Positions 47,143-54,337 of a stretch of 64,000 bases of DNA are shown piece by piece. The stretch is from Acidimicrobiaceae bacterium (GTDB taxonomy: Bacteria > Actinomycetota > Acidimicrobiia > Acidimicrobiales > Palsa-688). The first letter of the stretch is position 1, and each line of letters begins with the position of its first letter. The position numbers were made by a program, and so were the translations under genes. The stretch is taken from the NCBI GenBank assembly GCA_003166025.1, contig PMWT01000151.1, positions 6,624 through 70,623 of the forward strand, written 5' to 3'. A model generated the notes under the pieces. It searched no databases, had not been told where the DNA came from, and was given only the letters and a program-made list of their open reading frames with translations.

Positions 47143-48825
47143 ATGCCGAGCGAGATCAAGCCCCGAAGCCACGAAGTCACCGACGGCCGGGAGCGGGCGC
47201 CGGCGCGGGCCATGCTCAGGGCCGTTGGGATGACCGACGCCGACTGGGACAAACCCCAGGTCGGCGTGGCCTCGTCCTGGAACGAGGTCACCCCGTGCAA
47301 CCTGCCTCTGGACCGTTTGGCCAAGCGGGCCAAGCAGGGCGTGCGGGACGCCGGCGGGTTCCCGCTCGAGTTCGTGACCATTGCTGTTTCCGACGGCATT
47401 TCCATGGGCACCGAGGGCATGAGGGCGTCCCTGGTGAGCCGTGAGATCATCGCCGACTCGGTGGAAGCGATGATGCATGCGGAGCGCTTCGACGGCCTGG
47501 CCACCTTCGCGGGGTGCGACAAATCGCTGCCAGGGATGCTCATGGCCGCCGCCCGCCTCAACCTTCCTGCCGTTTTTCTCTACGGGGGCACGATCCTGCC
47601 CGGCCGGGGAGCAGGGGGCGAGGCGTTGGACATCGTGAGCGTGTTCGAGGCCGTGGGGGCCAATGCCGCCGGCACCCTCAGCGATGACGAACTGGCGCTC
47701 ATAGAGCGGAGGGCGTGCCCCACCGAGGGCAGTTGCGCCGGGATGTTCACCGCCAACACGATGGCGTGCGCGGCCGAAGCCCTAGGGATGGCGCTCCCGG
47801 GCAGTTCCACGGCACCGGCAGTGGACCGCCGGCGAGACGACTTCGCCTACGAGTCGGGAAGGGCGGTGGTCCGGTTGCTCAAGACGGGGACTCGCCCCCG
47901 CCAGATCCTGACCAAGGAGGCATTCGAAAACGCCATCGCCGTAGTAATGGCCCTCGGTGGTTCTACCAACGCCGTCCTGCACCTTCTCGCCATCGCCCAC
48001 GAGGCGCGCGTGGACCTGACGCTGGACGACTTCGACCGGGTCGGCAAAAGAGTCCCGCACCTGGCGGACATGAAACCCCACGGCCGCTACCACATGGTCG
48101 ACCTGGACCGCATCGGCGGGTTGCCTGTCGTCATGCAAGAGCTGCTGGACGCCGGTCTGCTCCACGGCGGGTGCCTGACGGTCTCGGGCCTGACGCTGGC
48201 CGAGAACCTCGCCGCGGCGCGCCCACCGGCACCGGAAGGCCAAGTCGTCCACCGGCTCTCCGAACCCATCCATGCGGATGGTGGGTTGGCCATCCTCCGG
48301 GGCTCGCTCGCCCCGGCGGGCGCCGTGGTCAAGGTGGCGGGCCTGGATTTTGCCCGCTTTGAGGGAGTGGCCCGGGTCTTCGACGGTGAGCAGCCGGCAC
48401 TGGAGGCGATCCTGGCCGGTGCCATCGAGCCGGGCACGGTGGTCGTCATACGTTATGAGGGCCCGAAGGGGGGCCCGGGCATGCGTGAGATGCTGGCGGT
48501 GACGGGGGCGATGAAGGGTGCCGGGCGGGGCGGCGACTGCGCCCTGGTGACCGACGGGCGCTTCAGCGGCGGCACGCACGGTTTTTGCATAGGCCACGTG
48601 GCCCCGGAAGCCGTTGACGGCGGCCCGATCGCCTTCCTGGCCGACGGGGACCGGATAATCATCGATGTGACCAAGCGCAGCATCGACGTCGCCCTGAGCC
48701 CTTCCGAGCTGGCCGCCCGCAAGACAGGCTGGAAGCTCCCCGAGCCCCGCTACCGCCACGGGGTACTGGCCAAGTACGCACGCCTCGTGACCGGGGCCGA
48801 CCAGGGCGCGGTCACCGAGCCCTGA
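47143..48825 (+). CDS. ilvD: Dihydroxy-acid dehydratase
   Basis: [78 protein letters not shown]. Confidence 0.96.
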
Positions 48826-49439: not shown

Positions 49440-50732
49440 TTAGGCGTCCACCCCGGCCACCCCGGCCACCCCCGGCCCGGCGCGGCGATCCAGGGCGCGG
49501 CTGGCCAGGGCGCGGCTGGCCAGGGCGCGACCGGCCAGGGCGGCGGAGATGCGGCTGAGGATCTCCCGGAGCAGTCCCGGGCTGGTGGCGAAATTGAGAC
49601 GGGCAAAGCCCGGTCCGCCCGGCCCGAAGCTGAGCCCCGAGCTCAGCATCACCCTGGCTTCCTCCAGCAACCAGGCGGCGGGGTCGTCGCCGAGCCCGGC
49701 GGGGCGGAAATCGAGCCAGGAGAGGTAAGTCGCCTCGGGAGGGTACCCGTGCACACCGGACGCGGCGCCTTCTCCCGCCAGCCAGTCGCCCAGGATCCGG
49801 CGGTTGTCCTGCAACCGGGCCACACAGCGCTCCAGCCAAGCGTCGCCCTCTGCGGACCAGGACGCCAGAGTGGCGGCCACGGCGGCGACTCCGGCTCCTC
49901 CGAGCAGGTGAGAGGGCAAGTCGGCGAGTTGACGCTCGATGCCGGTGTGCCCCACGTGGGCGACCGCACAACCCATGCCCCCAAGGTTGTGGGACTTGCT
50001 GGCTGAATAGAGCGTAAGCGTGCGTTGGGCCAGTTCCTCTGACAGCGAGGCGAACGGGACATGGTCCCCGGGACCAGCCAGCCCCAGGTCGGCATGGATC
50101 TCGTCCGAGATGACGATGAGGTTGTGCCGCAGGACGATGTCGCCCAGGGCCAGGAGCTCAGTGCGAGCCAGTCGGCGGCCTGTCGGGTTGTGGGGGTTGA
50201 CGAGGAGAAGGACCTTGGCCTGCGCCGCCAGGTCGGCGGCCGTCTCCATATCGAACGACCATCCCGTCCCGTCGTCGACGACAGGCGCGGCCAGGAGGCG
50301 GCGCCCCATGCTCTCGACCGTGTGGGGGAACGGGGGATAGGCGGGGGCAAAGAGCAGGACGCCGTCGCCGGGCGAAGTGGCCAGGTGCGTAACGATCTGG
50401 ACTATCTGGATCAGGTCGAAGAAGACGCGCAGGTGGCCGGGGGCGGGGGACCAGGCGTAGCGTTGCGCCATGCGAGCAGCCCATTTCTCTTCCAACAGGG
50501 CGGCCCGGTCGTTACGGGGGTAGCCGAGGTCCCCGCTCTCGGCCAGCTGGCTTAGGGCGTCGCGAACAGGCCTGGGAGCGGGGTAGTCCATGTCGGCGAC
50601 CCAGCACGGCAGGACATCGGGGGCGGCGAGGCCCCATTTGATCCCGGGCTTGGAGCGCAGCCATTTCTCATCGAGATCGTCGAACCCCTCATCGGCCCAG
50701 GTGCCGGGCCCATCTATCGCGGACAGTGCCAC
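49440..50732 (-). CDS. MalY/PatB-type PLP-dependent aminotransferase/C-S lyase
   Basis: KWGLAAPDVLPCWVADMDYPAPRPVRDAL; LVNPHNPTGRRLAR; SASKSHNLGGMGCAV; GTG start 50732. Confidence 0.9.
   Translation of the reverse strand: MALSAIDGPGTWADEGFDDLDEKWLRSKPGIKWGLAAPDVLPCWVADMDYPAPRPVRDALSQLAESGDLGYPRNDRAALLEEKWAARMAQRYAWSPAPGHLRVFFDLIQIVQIVTHLATSPGDGVLLFAPAYPPFPHTVESMGRRLLAAPVVDDGTGWSFDMETAADLAAQAKVLLLVNPHNPTGRRLARTELLALGDIVLRHNLIVISDEIHADLGLAGPGDHVPFASLSEELAQRTLTLYSASKSHNLGGMGCAVAHVGHTGIERQLADLPSHLLGGAGVAAVAATLASWSAEGDAWLERCVARLQDNRRILGDWLAGEGAASGVHGYPPEATYLSWLDFRPAGLGDDPAAWLLEEARVMLSSGLSFGPGGPGFARLNFATSPGLLREILSRISAALAGRALASRALASRALDRRAGPGVAGVAGVDA
49491..49535. repeat. Three tandem 15-bp units CAGGGCGCG[GCT/ACC]GGC in the C-terminal coding end of the PatB-like gene
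   Basis: Encodes ALASRALASRALDRR on the minus strand. Confidence 0.92.
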
Positions 50733-50777
50733 AGCGCATGTTAAGGCACGAGGGACGCCCGCCCAAGTCCTGGGGCC

Positions 50778-50806
50778 TTGCAGCACCCAGTGAGCTGTGG
50801 CATTAT
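50778..50806 (+). promoter_or_regulatory. Candidate sigma70-type promoter of ilvBNC
   Basis: TTGCAG (50778-50783), 17-bp spacer, CATTAT (50801-50806); predicted start near 50813. Confidence 0.6.
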
Positions 50807-50812
50807 GACGAG

Positions 50813-50893
50813 ATGGCAGGCGCACACAAGGGCACGGCTAGTCCCAGTGCTCCTGCCGGTATGGCCTTTTCCGGCCTTGTAGTACTTACCTGA
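50813..50893 (+). CDS. Putative leader peptide of the ilvBNC attenuator, MAGAHKGTASPSAPAGMAFSGLVVLT
   Basis: 26-codon ORF with Leu-Val-Val-Leu-Thr just before TGA, directly upstream of hairpin and terminator; ATG falls at the predicted transcription start. Confidence 0.65.
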   Translation: MAGAHKGTASPSAPAGMAFSGLVVLT

Positions 50894-50919
50894 CGCACGC
50901 GGCCATCAACGCGTGCGTC
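50892..50919 (+). promoter_or_regulatory. Leader RNA hairpin overlapping the leader peptide stop
   Basis: GACGCACGCG-gccatcaa-CGCGTGCGTC, perfect 10-bp stem. Confidence 0.75.
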
Positions 50920-50920
50920 C

Positions 50921-50954
50921 AACGACCTCCCTAACGGGAGGTCGTTTTGTTTTG
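50921..50954 (+). terminator. Intrinsic terminator in the ilvB leader (attenuator)
   Basis: AACGACCTCCC-taac-GGGAGGTCGTT followed by TTGTTTT; 11-bp perfect stem with T-rich tract. Confidence 0.85.
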
Positions 50955-50986
50955 CGAGCCAGCCCGACGACAGCGAGGCGCCGAAA

Positions 50987-52729
50987 ATGCAACTGACCGG
51001 GGCGCAAGCCCTAATAAAGAGCCTGGAGATGGAGCATACGGAGGTCATTTTCGGCCTGCCGGGCGGTGCCATCCTGCCTGCCTATGACCCCCTGCTCGAT
51101 TCGCCCATACGCCACGTGCTCGTGCGCCACGAACAGGGCGCCGGGCACATGGCCGAGGGGTATGCCGATGTGACCGGCCGCCCCGGCGTGGCCATGGTGA
51201 CGAGCGGCCCGGGGGCCACCAACCTGGTCACCCCTCTTTGTGATGCCTACATGGACTCCGTGCCCATGGTGGCCATCACCGGGCAGGTGGCGAGGCCCAT
51301 CATCGGGACCGACGCCTTCCAGGAGGGCGACACCGTCGGCATCACCCGTTCGGTCACCAAGCACAACGAGCTCGTGATGCGGGCCGAGGACATCGCCCTG
51401 TCAGTGCGCCAAGCTTTCCTATTGGCTACGACGGGCCGGCCCGGGCCCGTGCTGCTGGACATCCCCAAGGACATCCTCCAGGCTCAGACCGAGTGGTACT
51501 GGCCGAACGACGATGAAGTCGCCGCCTCTCTGCCCGGCTACCGGCCCAACACCAAAGGCCACCCCCGCATGGTGAGGGAGGCGGTACGGCTGATAACCGC
51601 CTCGCAGCGGCCGGTAATTTATGCCGGCGGCGGGATCTTGAAGGCCCGGGCCTCCGAGGCCCTCATGAAACTGGCCGAGCTTATAAATGCGCCCGTCGTG
51701 ACCACCTTGATGGCTCGGGGCGCTTTCCCTGACAGCCACCGCCAGTGCCTGGGGATGCCGGGCATGCACGGCAATTACACAGCAATTACGGCCATGCAGG
51801 AGGCGGACCTGCTCATAGCTCTGGGTACCCGTTTTGACGACCGGGTCACGGGGCGGGTGAGCTCGTTCGCCCCTGGTGCCAAGGTGGTCCACGTCGACAT
51901 CGACCCCGCTGAGCTCGGCAAGATCCGCCGTCCGGAGGTCCCCATAGTCGGCGATTGTCGTCTGGTCATCGAAGAGCTGGTGCGCGTGCTGACGGCCAGT
52001 GGGGACGTTCAGCCGGACCGGGCGCCGTGGTGGGGGCGACTGAAGGAGTGGGCCTTGCGGTTCCCCCTGCATTACGAGCCACAAGCCGAGGGCGACCCGC
52101 TCAAGCCACAGGCCGTCATAGAAGCGATCCGGGACGCCAGCCCGGCCGACACCACCGTCGTGTCGGGGGTCGGCCAGCACCAGATGTGGGCCAGCCAGTA
52201 CTGGCGTTTCGATTACCCGTACACCTGGGTCAATTCTGGCGGCCTGGGGACGATGGGCTTCGCCGTGCCCGCCGCCATAGGGGCTAAGGTCGGGCGTCCC
52301 GACCGCACGGTGTGGGCCATTGACGGTGACGGCTGTTTCCAGATGACAGCGCAGGAACTGGTCACCGCGTCAAGCGAGCGCATACCGATAAAGGTGGCCA
52401 TCCTCAACAATGCCTACCTCGGCATGGTCCGCCAATGGCAGGAAATGTTCTACCAAGAGCGTTATTCCGAGGTGTACCTCTCGCCGGACCTACCCGATTA
52501 CGTCAAGTGGGCCGAAGCCATGGGCTGCGTCGCCTTCCGGGTCGAGCACCCCTCCGACGTCGGTCCCGTGATCGACAAGGCCAACGCCATCGACGACCGC
52601 CCGGTCGTCATCGATTTTCGGACCGACTCGCAAGAGAAAGTCTTCCCGATGGTCCCGGCCGGCGCCTCCAACAGCGATGTTGTCGTGCACCCGGCCCTGC
52701 GCCCGGGCGGGGAAAGGGTGGTCCAGTGA
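50987..52729 (+). CDS. ilvB: Acetolactate synthase large subunit
   Basis: [38 protein letters not shown] motif [12 protein letters not shown]...[12 protein letters not shown]. Confidence 0.96.
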
Positions 52730-53301
52730 TGTCGCTTTCCAGTACGGGGGCCACCTGGGCCTCGGGCAGCGGGCGCGTGCGCCACCAGACAATTTCTGTG
52801 ATCGTCGAGAACCGGGCCGGCGTGCTGGCCCGCGTATCGGCACTTTTTGCCCGCCGGGGCTTCAACATAATCTCTCTGGCCGTCGCTCCGAGCGATGACG
52901 ATTCGTTCAGCCGGATCACGATCGTCGTGGACCTGGACGAAACGTCGGTGGAGCAGTTGACCAAGCAGCTTTTCAAGCTCGTCAACGTAGTGAAGATTAC
53001 CGAGATGACGCCGGGCGAAGCCATAGAGCGCGAACTGGCCCTTCTCTCTGTACGCTGTGCCCCTCCCGGGGGGGCCGGGCCCTCCCGGGGCGAGGTGGGC
53101 GACTTGGTCCGCATTTTCGGTGCCACCATCGTGGACGTGGGCCAGGAGGCGCTTACGGTTATGCTGGCCGGGCAGCCTTCGCTGCTGGACGATTTCGAGG
53201 AACTGCTGCGCCCGTACGGGATAATCGAGATCCAGCGCACTGGGCGGGTGGCGTTGCCGAAGTTGGAACGCCCGCCCGTCCATCACAAGAACCGCAACTG
53301 A
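52729..53301 (+). CDS. ilvN: Acetolactate synthase small subunit
   Basis: ACT domain [51 protein letters not shown] 52729 overlaps the ilvB stop. Confidence 0.95.
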
Positions 53302-53311
53302 AAGGCAGGCA

Positions 53312-54337
53312 ATGGCCACCATTTACTACGAGCACGACGCCGACCCCTCTGTCATCACGTCTCGGAAGGTAGCCATAATCGGCTATGGCTCCCAGGGCCA
53401 CGCCCATGCCCTCAACCTCCGGGACTCTGGGGTGGACGTGAGGGTGGGGCTGCGCCCGGGCTCGTCCTCGCGGGCCAAGGCCGAGGCGGCCGGCCTTCGG
53501 GCCCTGAGCTCGGCCGAGGCCGCGGCCGAGGCAGACGTGATAATGATGCTGGCACCCGATACCGCCCAACAGGAGATTTACAAACAGGACATAGAGACCA
53601 ACCTGCGCCCGGGTGACGTCTTGATGTTCGCTCACGGTTTCAATATCCGCTTCGGCCTCATCGACCCCCCCGAAGGAGTCGACGTGGCCATGGTGGCCCC
53701 CAAGGGGCCAGGGCACCTCGTCAGGCGCACCTATGAGGGCGGGGGCGGCGTACCCGCGCTGCTGGCTGTGGAGCGCGACGCCACCGGCAAGGCCAAGGCG
53801 CTGGGGCTCTCATATGCCTGGGGCATAGGCGCCACCAGGGCGGGCGTGCTGGAGACGACGTTCAAAGAAGAGACTGAGACCGACCTCTTCGGTGAGCAGG
53901 TGGTCCTGTGCGGCGGGCTCACGTCGTTGATAAAAGCAGGCTTCGACACCCTGGTCGAGGCCGGTTACCAGCCCGAGTCCGCCTATTTCGAGTGCCTGCA
54001 CGAGGTGAAGCTCATAGTCGACCTCATTTATGAGCACGGCATCACCGGGATGCGGTACTCGATCTCGACCACGGCCGAGTACGGCGACATGACGCGTGGC
54101 CCCAGGCTCATCAACGGCTCGGTCCGGGCCGAGATGAAGCAGATCCTGGCCGACATCCAGTCCGGGGCGTTCGCGCAGGAGTGGGTGAAGGAGAACCGTG
54201 ACGGCCTGCCTAATTACCACCGGCTGCAAAAGGAGGGCGCCGAGCACCCCGTCGAAAAGGTGGGCGCGCAATTGCGGTCCATGATGCCCTTCTTGGCCTC
54301 GGGAAGCCCGCGGCCCCAGGACGTCTCTGGAGGTTGA
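53312..54337 (+). CDS. ilvC: Ketol-acid reductoisomerase
   Basis: [71 protein letters not shown]. Confidence 0.97.

Follow-up and report, generated by a model that had tools for sequence, protein, structure and literature searches.

Textbook attenuators need two mutually exclusive folds. In C. glutamicum, transcription of ilvBNC begins 1 nt from the start codon of the leader, and the antiterminator hairpin adjoins the terminator with an overlap of just three bases (PMC11857589). The S. lividans ilvL, leuL and trpL leader peptides are likewise leaderless (PMC8079986), and in mycobacteria leaderless transcripts are known more widely (PMC4633059).

We describe here the ilvBNC leader found in a 64,000-nt stretch of DNA from an Acidimicrobiaceae bacterium (contig PMWT01000151.1 of assembly GCA_003166025.1; hereafter the window). 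By computation we define the parts of this leader, their conservation and covariation, and the codon choice of its short open reading frame. With a probability of roughly 0.65, we read the element as a ribosome-mediated ilvBNC attenuator that senses charged Val, Leu and Ile tRNA and in which a hairpin beginning in the leader stop codon, H1, would sterically block the terminator.

Results

The leader locus in the window

The features of the locus are collected in Table 1. The promoter hexamers and their 17-nt spacer, the ATG at 50813, the 26-codon ORF ending in Gly-Leu-Val-Val-Leu-Thr and TGA (50891-50893), the perfect 10-bp hairpin overlapping that stop codon, and the 11-bp terminator with its T-rich tract all lie, to the base, where a first-pass annotation had placed them. 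The ilvB ATG is 40 nt past the terminator stem and 32 nt past the T-rich tract, and the 32 nt given by the annotation matches the latter distance. H1 and the terminator are separated by 1 nt. A terminator scan of the locus returned exactly one terminator, the hairpin at 50921, and the leader has a minimum free energy (MFE) of -74.4 against -51.3 +/- 4.0 for shuffled sequences (z = -5.85, far beyond chance). A promoter scan at the ilvB leader found no consensus sigma-70 promoter because TTGCAG and CATTAT are weak by E. coli standards. The nearest named relative, 'Acidimicrobiaceae bacterium fen_671', has an IlvB with 93% identity.

The promoters of ilvBNC and of the divergent aminotransferase sit in one short intergenic region. 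The longest ORF of the aminotransferase extends into the ilvL leader, and its true start is probably further inside that ORF. The searches made found no copy of the attenuator element before ilvD.

Table 1. Features of the ilvBNC leader locus and its neighbors in the window, with the leuA leader loci of relatives
Feature	Position or locus	Strand	Basis or remark
ilvD	47143-48825	+	NCBIfam-confirmed; 5' of ilvBNC, HAD-like hydrolase and aminotransferase between
PatB/MalY-like aminotransferase, divergent	49440-50825	-	Named from sequence
-35 element TTGCAG	50778-50783	+	Sequence; TTG kept in relatives
-10 element CATTAT	50801-50806	+	Sequence; 17-nt spacer from TTGCAG
Leader peptide ORF ilvL, 26 codons, MAGAHKGTASPSAPAGMAFSGLVVLT*	50813-50893	+	ATG 50813 is the predicted transcription start; candidate leaderless
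Control codons CTT GTA GTA CTT (Leu Val Val Leu)	50876-50887	+	Codons -5 to -2 before the stop
Hairpin H1, perfect 10 bp	50892-50919	+	50892-50901 with 50910-50919; begins inside the stop codon
Intrinsic terminator	50921-50954	+	11-bp hairpin, 50921-50931 with 50936-50946, then U-rich tract TTGTTTTG
ilvB, acetolactate synthase large subunit	50987-52729	+	NCBIfam NF005860, 898 bits, above cut-off
ilvN, acetolactate synthase small subunit	52717-53301 (start approximate)	+	NCBIfam NF008864, 178.6 bits, above cut-off
ilvC, ketol-acid reductoisomerase	53312-54337	+	NCBIfam NF004017, 548.8 bits, above cut-off
leuA leader loci	L188, L193-L195, L268, L270, L274, L277, L281, L295, L301		

Conservation of the leader peptide and its codons

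We collected 110 ilvB loci and parsed the 83 distinct upstream regions that reached far enough. An automatic terminator search found a hairpin with a T-rich tail in 82 of the 83, and the remaining leader (L091) differs in having a weaker T tract behind this hairpin. The layout of leader ORF, H1 and terminator is present in all 82 parsed ilvB leaders, a count that, like the others given here, is inflated by related sequences and drawn from genomes or metagenome assemblies. This conservation strongly supports the annotated branched-chain amino acid (BCAA) leader peptide and terminator.

The leader ORF has 11 codons in 41 of the 82 leaders and 12 in 15, by comparison with which the 26 codons in the window are long; start codons were picked by script and may be placed too far upstream in a few long ORFs. 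The annotation had suggested looking for Leu, Val and Ile codons upstream of ilvB in relatives, and these are indeed conserved: positions -5, -4, -3 and -2 relative to the stop hold BCAA codons in 77, 81, 77 and 67 of the 82 leaders. Position -1 does so in just 7. The choice of Val codon is extreme, with GTA accounting for 127 of 183 leader Val codons (69%) against 1.2% of the 4387 Val codons in the same ilvB genes; it stands at -4 in 59 leaders and at -3 in 48. Theory holds that a control codon rare in the proteome should sharpen the response, provided that its cognate tRNA loses charge (PMC1183508), and under this proviso the use of GTA would be expected to do so here.

Promoter position and the predicted leaderless start

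A TTG at a spacing of 15-19 nt is present in 74 of the 82 leaders, against 2-3 in shifted controls, and it is because of this conservation that we take the window promoter to be real despite its weak hexamers. The lineage consensus of the -10 element is cAnacT, with A2 in 82 and T6 in 81 of 82 leaders, figures that reflect hexamers selected with a preference for these two bases. So that the choice of promoter would not be drawn toward start codons, we also made an unbiased search for TTG-N3-N(16-18)-NANNNT that ignored the ORF. This pattern was matched in 72 of the 82 leaders, and in 63 of the 72 the -10 element ends 6-9 nt before the first in-frame ATG or GTG, leaving no room for a Shine-Dalgarno site between promoter and start codon. 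On the evidence of promoter position, it is therefore strongly supported that the leader mRNA is leaderless, starting at or adjacent to the leader start codon. The first-pass annotation had suggested that the start might be of this kind, and had seen in a leaderless leader peptide the unusual element of the locus; this feature was already known from C. glutamicum (PMC11857589) and S. lividans (PMC8079986).

Covariation and the ribosome-dependent fold of H1

In an alignment of 65 leaders, 93.3% of the H1 and terminator cells are paired, against 34-59% when the structure is slid along the sequence. The covariation score is 0.182, compared with 0.126 +/- 0.006 after shuffling (0 of 500 shuffles as high), and reaches 0.318 against 0.184 in a set of 55 leaders from several genes and classes. 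At its base H1 is closed by a pair with the third position of the stop codon, so that TAG goes with C and TGA with U; among the 55 leaders this pair is G-C in 36, A-U in 11, G-U in 2 and something else in 6. H1 and the terminator lie 0-5 nt apart in 78 of the 82 ilvB leaders, and the spacing is likewise short in other genes and classes. The terminator hairpin is strong by itself, with a mean MFE of -18.4 and a U tract behind it.

In a small test of whether ordinary terminators shun abutting hairpins, such hairpins occurred in 2 of 19 cases against 1.5 expected, 800 kb having yielded only these 19 terminators. By the strict criteria used, strong U-tract terminators are very rare in these genomes (G033:C1 and G037:C1, first 400 kb of each; L198-L237), yet almost all relatives have retained the one before ilvB.

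We modeled the effect of the ribosome with a footprint assumed to reach 12 nt past the first base of the codon in the A site, a value for which an error of 3 nt is a register shift of one codon. In the window, H1 has an MFE of -20.7 with the A site at -4 or earlier and of -0.3 with the A site at the stop. The mean over the 82 leaders, in energies that are thermodynamic approximations, is -18 kcal/mol for A sites from -6 to -4, -13 at -3, -6 at -2 and -2 at the stop. Ribosome position in this model toggles the fold of H1, and the GTA peak at -4 coincides with the last register that leaves H1 free.

Search for a classical antiterminator

Full-length equilibrium folding was rejected as a diagnostic, since it lets the terminator prevail even for E. 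coli trp. The RNA was folded up to a point before the terminator 3' arm, with the ribosome in place. In the E. coli controls with the ribosome on the control codons, the terminator 5' arm paired upstream with P of ~0.7 for trp, 1.0 for thr and 0.75 for his; for trp and thr this pairing dropped to ~0 with the ribosome at the stop. Textbook trp and thr attenuation has just this loss of pairing of the terminator 5' arm when the ribosome reaches the stop.

None of the 82 leaders sequestered the terminator 5' arm upstream with P > 0.5 for any A site from -6 to -2, the mean P being 0.07 at -5, 0.014 at -4 and 0.08 at -3. Duplexes between the H1 region and the terminator arms are no stronger for a leader's own arms than for swapped ones (-4.4 against -4.5, and -10.3 against -10.3), where the corresponding duplexes in E. 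coli trp, thr and his reach -10.9 to -18.3 kcal/mol. In these folding models an antiterminator sharing bases with the terminator is not there in the classical sense. The annotation, having identified no clear antiterminator by eye, had pointed to one competing with 50921-50931 as something to be sought by folding; with the E. coli controls positive, this folding revealed none in any of the 82 leaders. Of the ribosome-mediated attenuation that the annotation proposed, the leader codons, the terminator and the leaderless start stand; the mutually exclusive fold, which it had called unproven, is not supported.

Distribution and re-coded copies

A covariance model of the element (R1) found it in 57 of 61 relatives and in all 35 relatives that were at least 90% complete and clean. 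Of 150 genomes taken from the phylum, 49 had it at E < 0.01, and its place before ilvB recurs in several other classes. Neither the window nor the paralog loci matched at threshold any of the 4227 Rfam families, amino-acid leaders included, the best weak match, to Phe_leader, scoring 27.2 bits where 55 are required.

A second copy of the cassette is present in most genomes. The one in the source genome (G000:C113, locus L182) has the leader codons VVITT and lies before leuB and ilvE, both identified by NCBIfam. The leuA copies in relatives read LLLL or LLL in 11 of 11 (Table 1), and those before the citramalate synthase gene cimA read III, IIII or VII in 4 of 4 (L187, L196, L287, L171), NCBIfam having confirmed L187 (cimA) and L188 (leuA) and the other leuA and cimA copies being named from sequence. 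The leuB leaders have mostly Val and Ile codons. Nothing argues more strongly for the codons being the sensor than this match between the leader codons and the product of the gene controlled.

A second model (R2), made of the two hairpins only and used to look for Trp, His and other codons, gave no convincing copy with such codons in 59 relatives; its convincing matches (E < ~1e-6) with a readable downstream gene all precede BCAA genes, and matches with E > 1e-4 were judged spurious or ambiguous by eye. Three loci of another class (L163, L177 and L178, ~1501-1592; family f40) have an H1-terminator pair after short ORFs without a BCAA run, upstream of a gene that its sequence suggests to be isocitrate lyase (aceA); a GAAC-N4/5-GTTC inverted repeat lies close by. 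In L133, from a genome farther off within the phylum, ilvB has a longer BCAA-containing leader of different layout, with a similar terminator, ACGACCTACC...GGGAGGTCGT.

Discussion

Proposed mechanism

That ilvBNC is attenuated by BCAA supply is very probable, given the match of codons to products and the homologous ilvB systems. RNA polymerase would begin transcription at the ATG or beside it, and the leaderless 5' end would take up a 70S ribosome. When BCAA are plentiful, the ribosome would pass the LVVL codons to the stop and cover ~12 nt ahead, which is the entire 5' arm of H1; with H1 blocked, the terminator would fold and transcription end. When BCAA are scarce, the ribosome would come to a halt as Leu or the first GTA enters the A site, stopping just short of H1. 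The hairpin could then form with its full stability, within 0-5 nt of the terminator base. For a response in the useful direction, stalling, with H1 formed, would have to give readthrough.

How H1 would achieve this is the more tentative part, and the hypothesis of a steric block falls just short of an even chance. We propose that H1 acts sterically, because it has no sequence in common with the terminator and yet lies 0-5 nt from it: the mouth of the RNA exit channel would not have room for two abutting helices, the terminator could not close its basal pairs, and polymerase would read through into ilvB. Our literature search found no precedent for a steric antiterminator hairpin. The ANTAR dual hairpin overlaps its terminator and needs a protein (PMC8934654). 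Counting against the steric step is a survey holding that hairpins next to each other favor termination instead of preventing it (PMC8355165); also on the negative side, altering candidate ilvB leader codons in S. coelicolor reportedly left regulation unaffected (PMC1262725).

Alternative explanations

The closest studied systems work by a pairing antiterminator (PMC11857589, PMC13236596, PMC10272879), and the element could be a classical attenuator whose antiterminator went unseen. Upon stalling, a terminator arm would then be bound by the 3' arm of H1, once free, or by a segment that is more distant or pseudoknotted, on the pattern of E. coli trp and C. glutamicum ilvBNC. The terminator 5' arm does pair upstream in some paralogs (P 0.4-0.9), but with the ribosome at the stop, which is the wrong state, and for a gain of only ~1-4 kcal/mol. 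The mean P of just 0.01-0.08 at the stall codons and the failure of own arms to outdo swapped ones make this explanation unlikely. The polarity might also be reversed, with H1 and the terminator forming a two-hairpin terminator: a stalled ribosome would mask H1 and weaken termination, and after its release both hairpins would form and transcription would stop. Hairpin clusters have been reported as termination units (PMC8355165), and H1 is weakened by a stall at -3 or -2. Against this, the terminator is strong alone, and the GTA peak falls at -4, a position that leaves H1 intact. The stall nearest the stop should work best in such a scheme, yet codon -1 is the one that so seldom specifies a BCAA. 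The codon register speaks against this arrangement, which we consider improbable.

Pause hairpins belong to known attenuators and are established for trp and his. H1 might be a mere pausing or synchronizing hairpin of this kind, letting the ribosome catch up on a very short leaderless ORF while the terminator is regulated otherwise or hardly at all; a pausing role has been proposed for a C. glutamicum hairpin (PMC11857589). The conserved closeness to the terminator and the pairing of the stop codon with compensatory changes would then go unexplained, and we regard a pause-only role as quite improbable. An ordinary terminator behind a chance ORF, with no regulation, has next to no probability: adjacent hairpins do arise by chance at terminators in GC-rich genomes, as in the 2 of 19 above, but this reading is refuted by conservation, being contradicted class-wide by the codons, their position, the promoter, the covariation and the re-matching of codons to leuA or cimA.

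Comparison with known systems

What is new is a class-wide family of Acidimicrobiia attenuators that is absent from Rfam and has no classical antiterminator. The family keeps the sensor and the terminator and drops the shared sequence, in dozens of bacterial families and before four kinds of target gene. It is the first described amino-acid regulon for the almost uncultured class Acidimicrobiia, and our literature search found no paper linking this class to leader-peptide attenuation. It is possible, though somewhat less likely than not, that a stalled ribosome here switches genes on without any competition for base pairing, the stop-codon hairpin excluding the abutting terminator purely sterically, and that an ORF of ~11 leaderless codons with two hairpins constitutes a minimal sensor re-codable for ilvB, leuA, leuB and cimA. 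If the steric reading is true, it represents a simpler principle of antitermination that could be re-coded as a biosensor.

Like the E. coli trp, thr and his attenuators, the element combines product-matched control codons, a stop and a terminator; in E. coli, however, an antiterminator sequesters the terminator 5' arm and the ribosome binds by a Shine-Dalgarno sequence. S. lividans ilvL, leuL and trpL resemble it as leaderless leader peptides in an actinobacterium (PMC8079986), but they and the candidate ilvB leaders have their BCAA codons far from the stop (MRTRILVLGKRVG*) and no stop-codon hairpin abutting the terminator (PMC8079986, PMC1262725). M. tuberculosis ilvB1NC shares the operon, the LVVI control codons with GUA, a terminator in the leader and a ribosome at the stop that masks the ON structure, and differs in its 166-nt leader, a U tract ending at +126 and mutually exclusive terminator and antiterminator folds (PMC13236596).

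The closest likeness is to C. glutamicum ilvBNC and the ilvB-II motif, which have the same operon, a BCAA leader peptide, control codons that include GUA, transcription beginning 1 nt from the start codon and a stop-spanning hairpin adjoining the terminator (PMC11857589, PMC10272879). The C. glutamicum peptide is 15-17 aa long with its run in the middle, whereas the Acidimicrobiia peptide usually has 11 aa with the run at the end. In C. glutamicum the antiterminator and terminator share a GCC trinucleotide, or the 3' shoulder of the terminator pairs with an upstream loop; the Acidimicrobiia element shares nothing, a terminator base shared as in ilvB-II being absent with a spacer of 1 nt in the window and 0-5 nt in 78 of 82 leaders, and no preference for own arms. 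Since the C. glutamicum hairpin also adjoins its terminator, with only three common bases, the Acidimicrobiia form may be the end point of a trend, seen in C. glutamicum, toward minimal overlap between the two hairpins.
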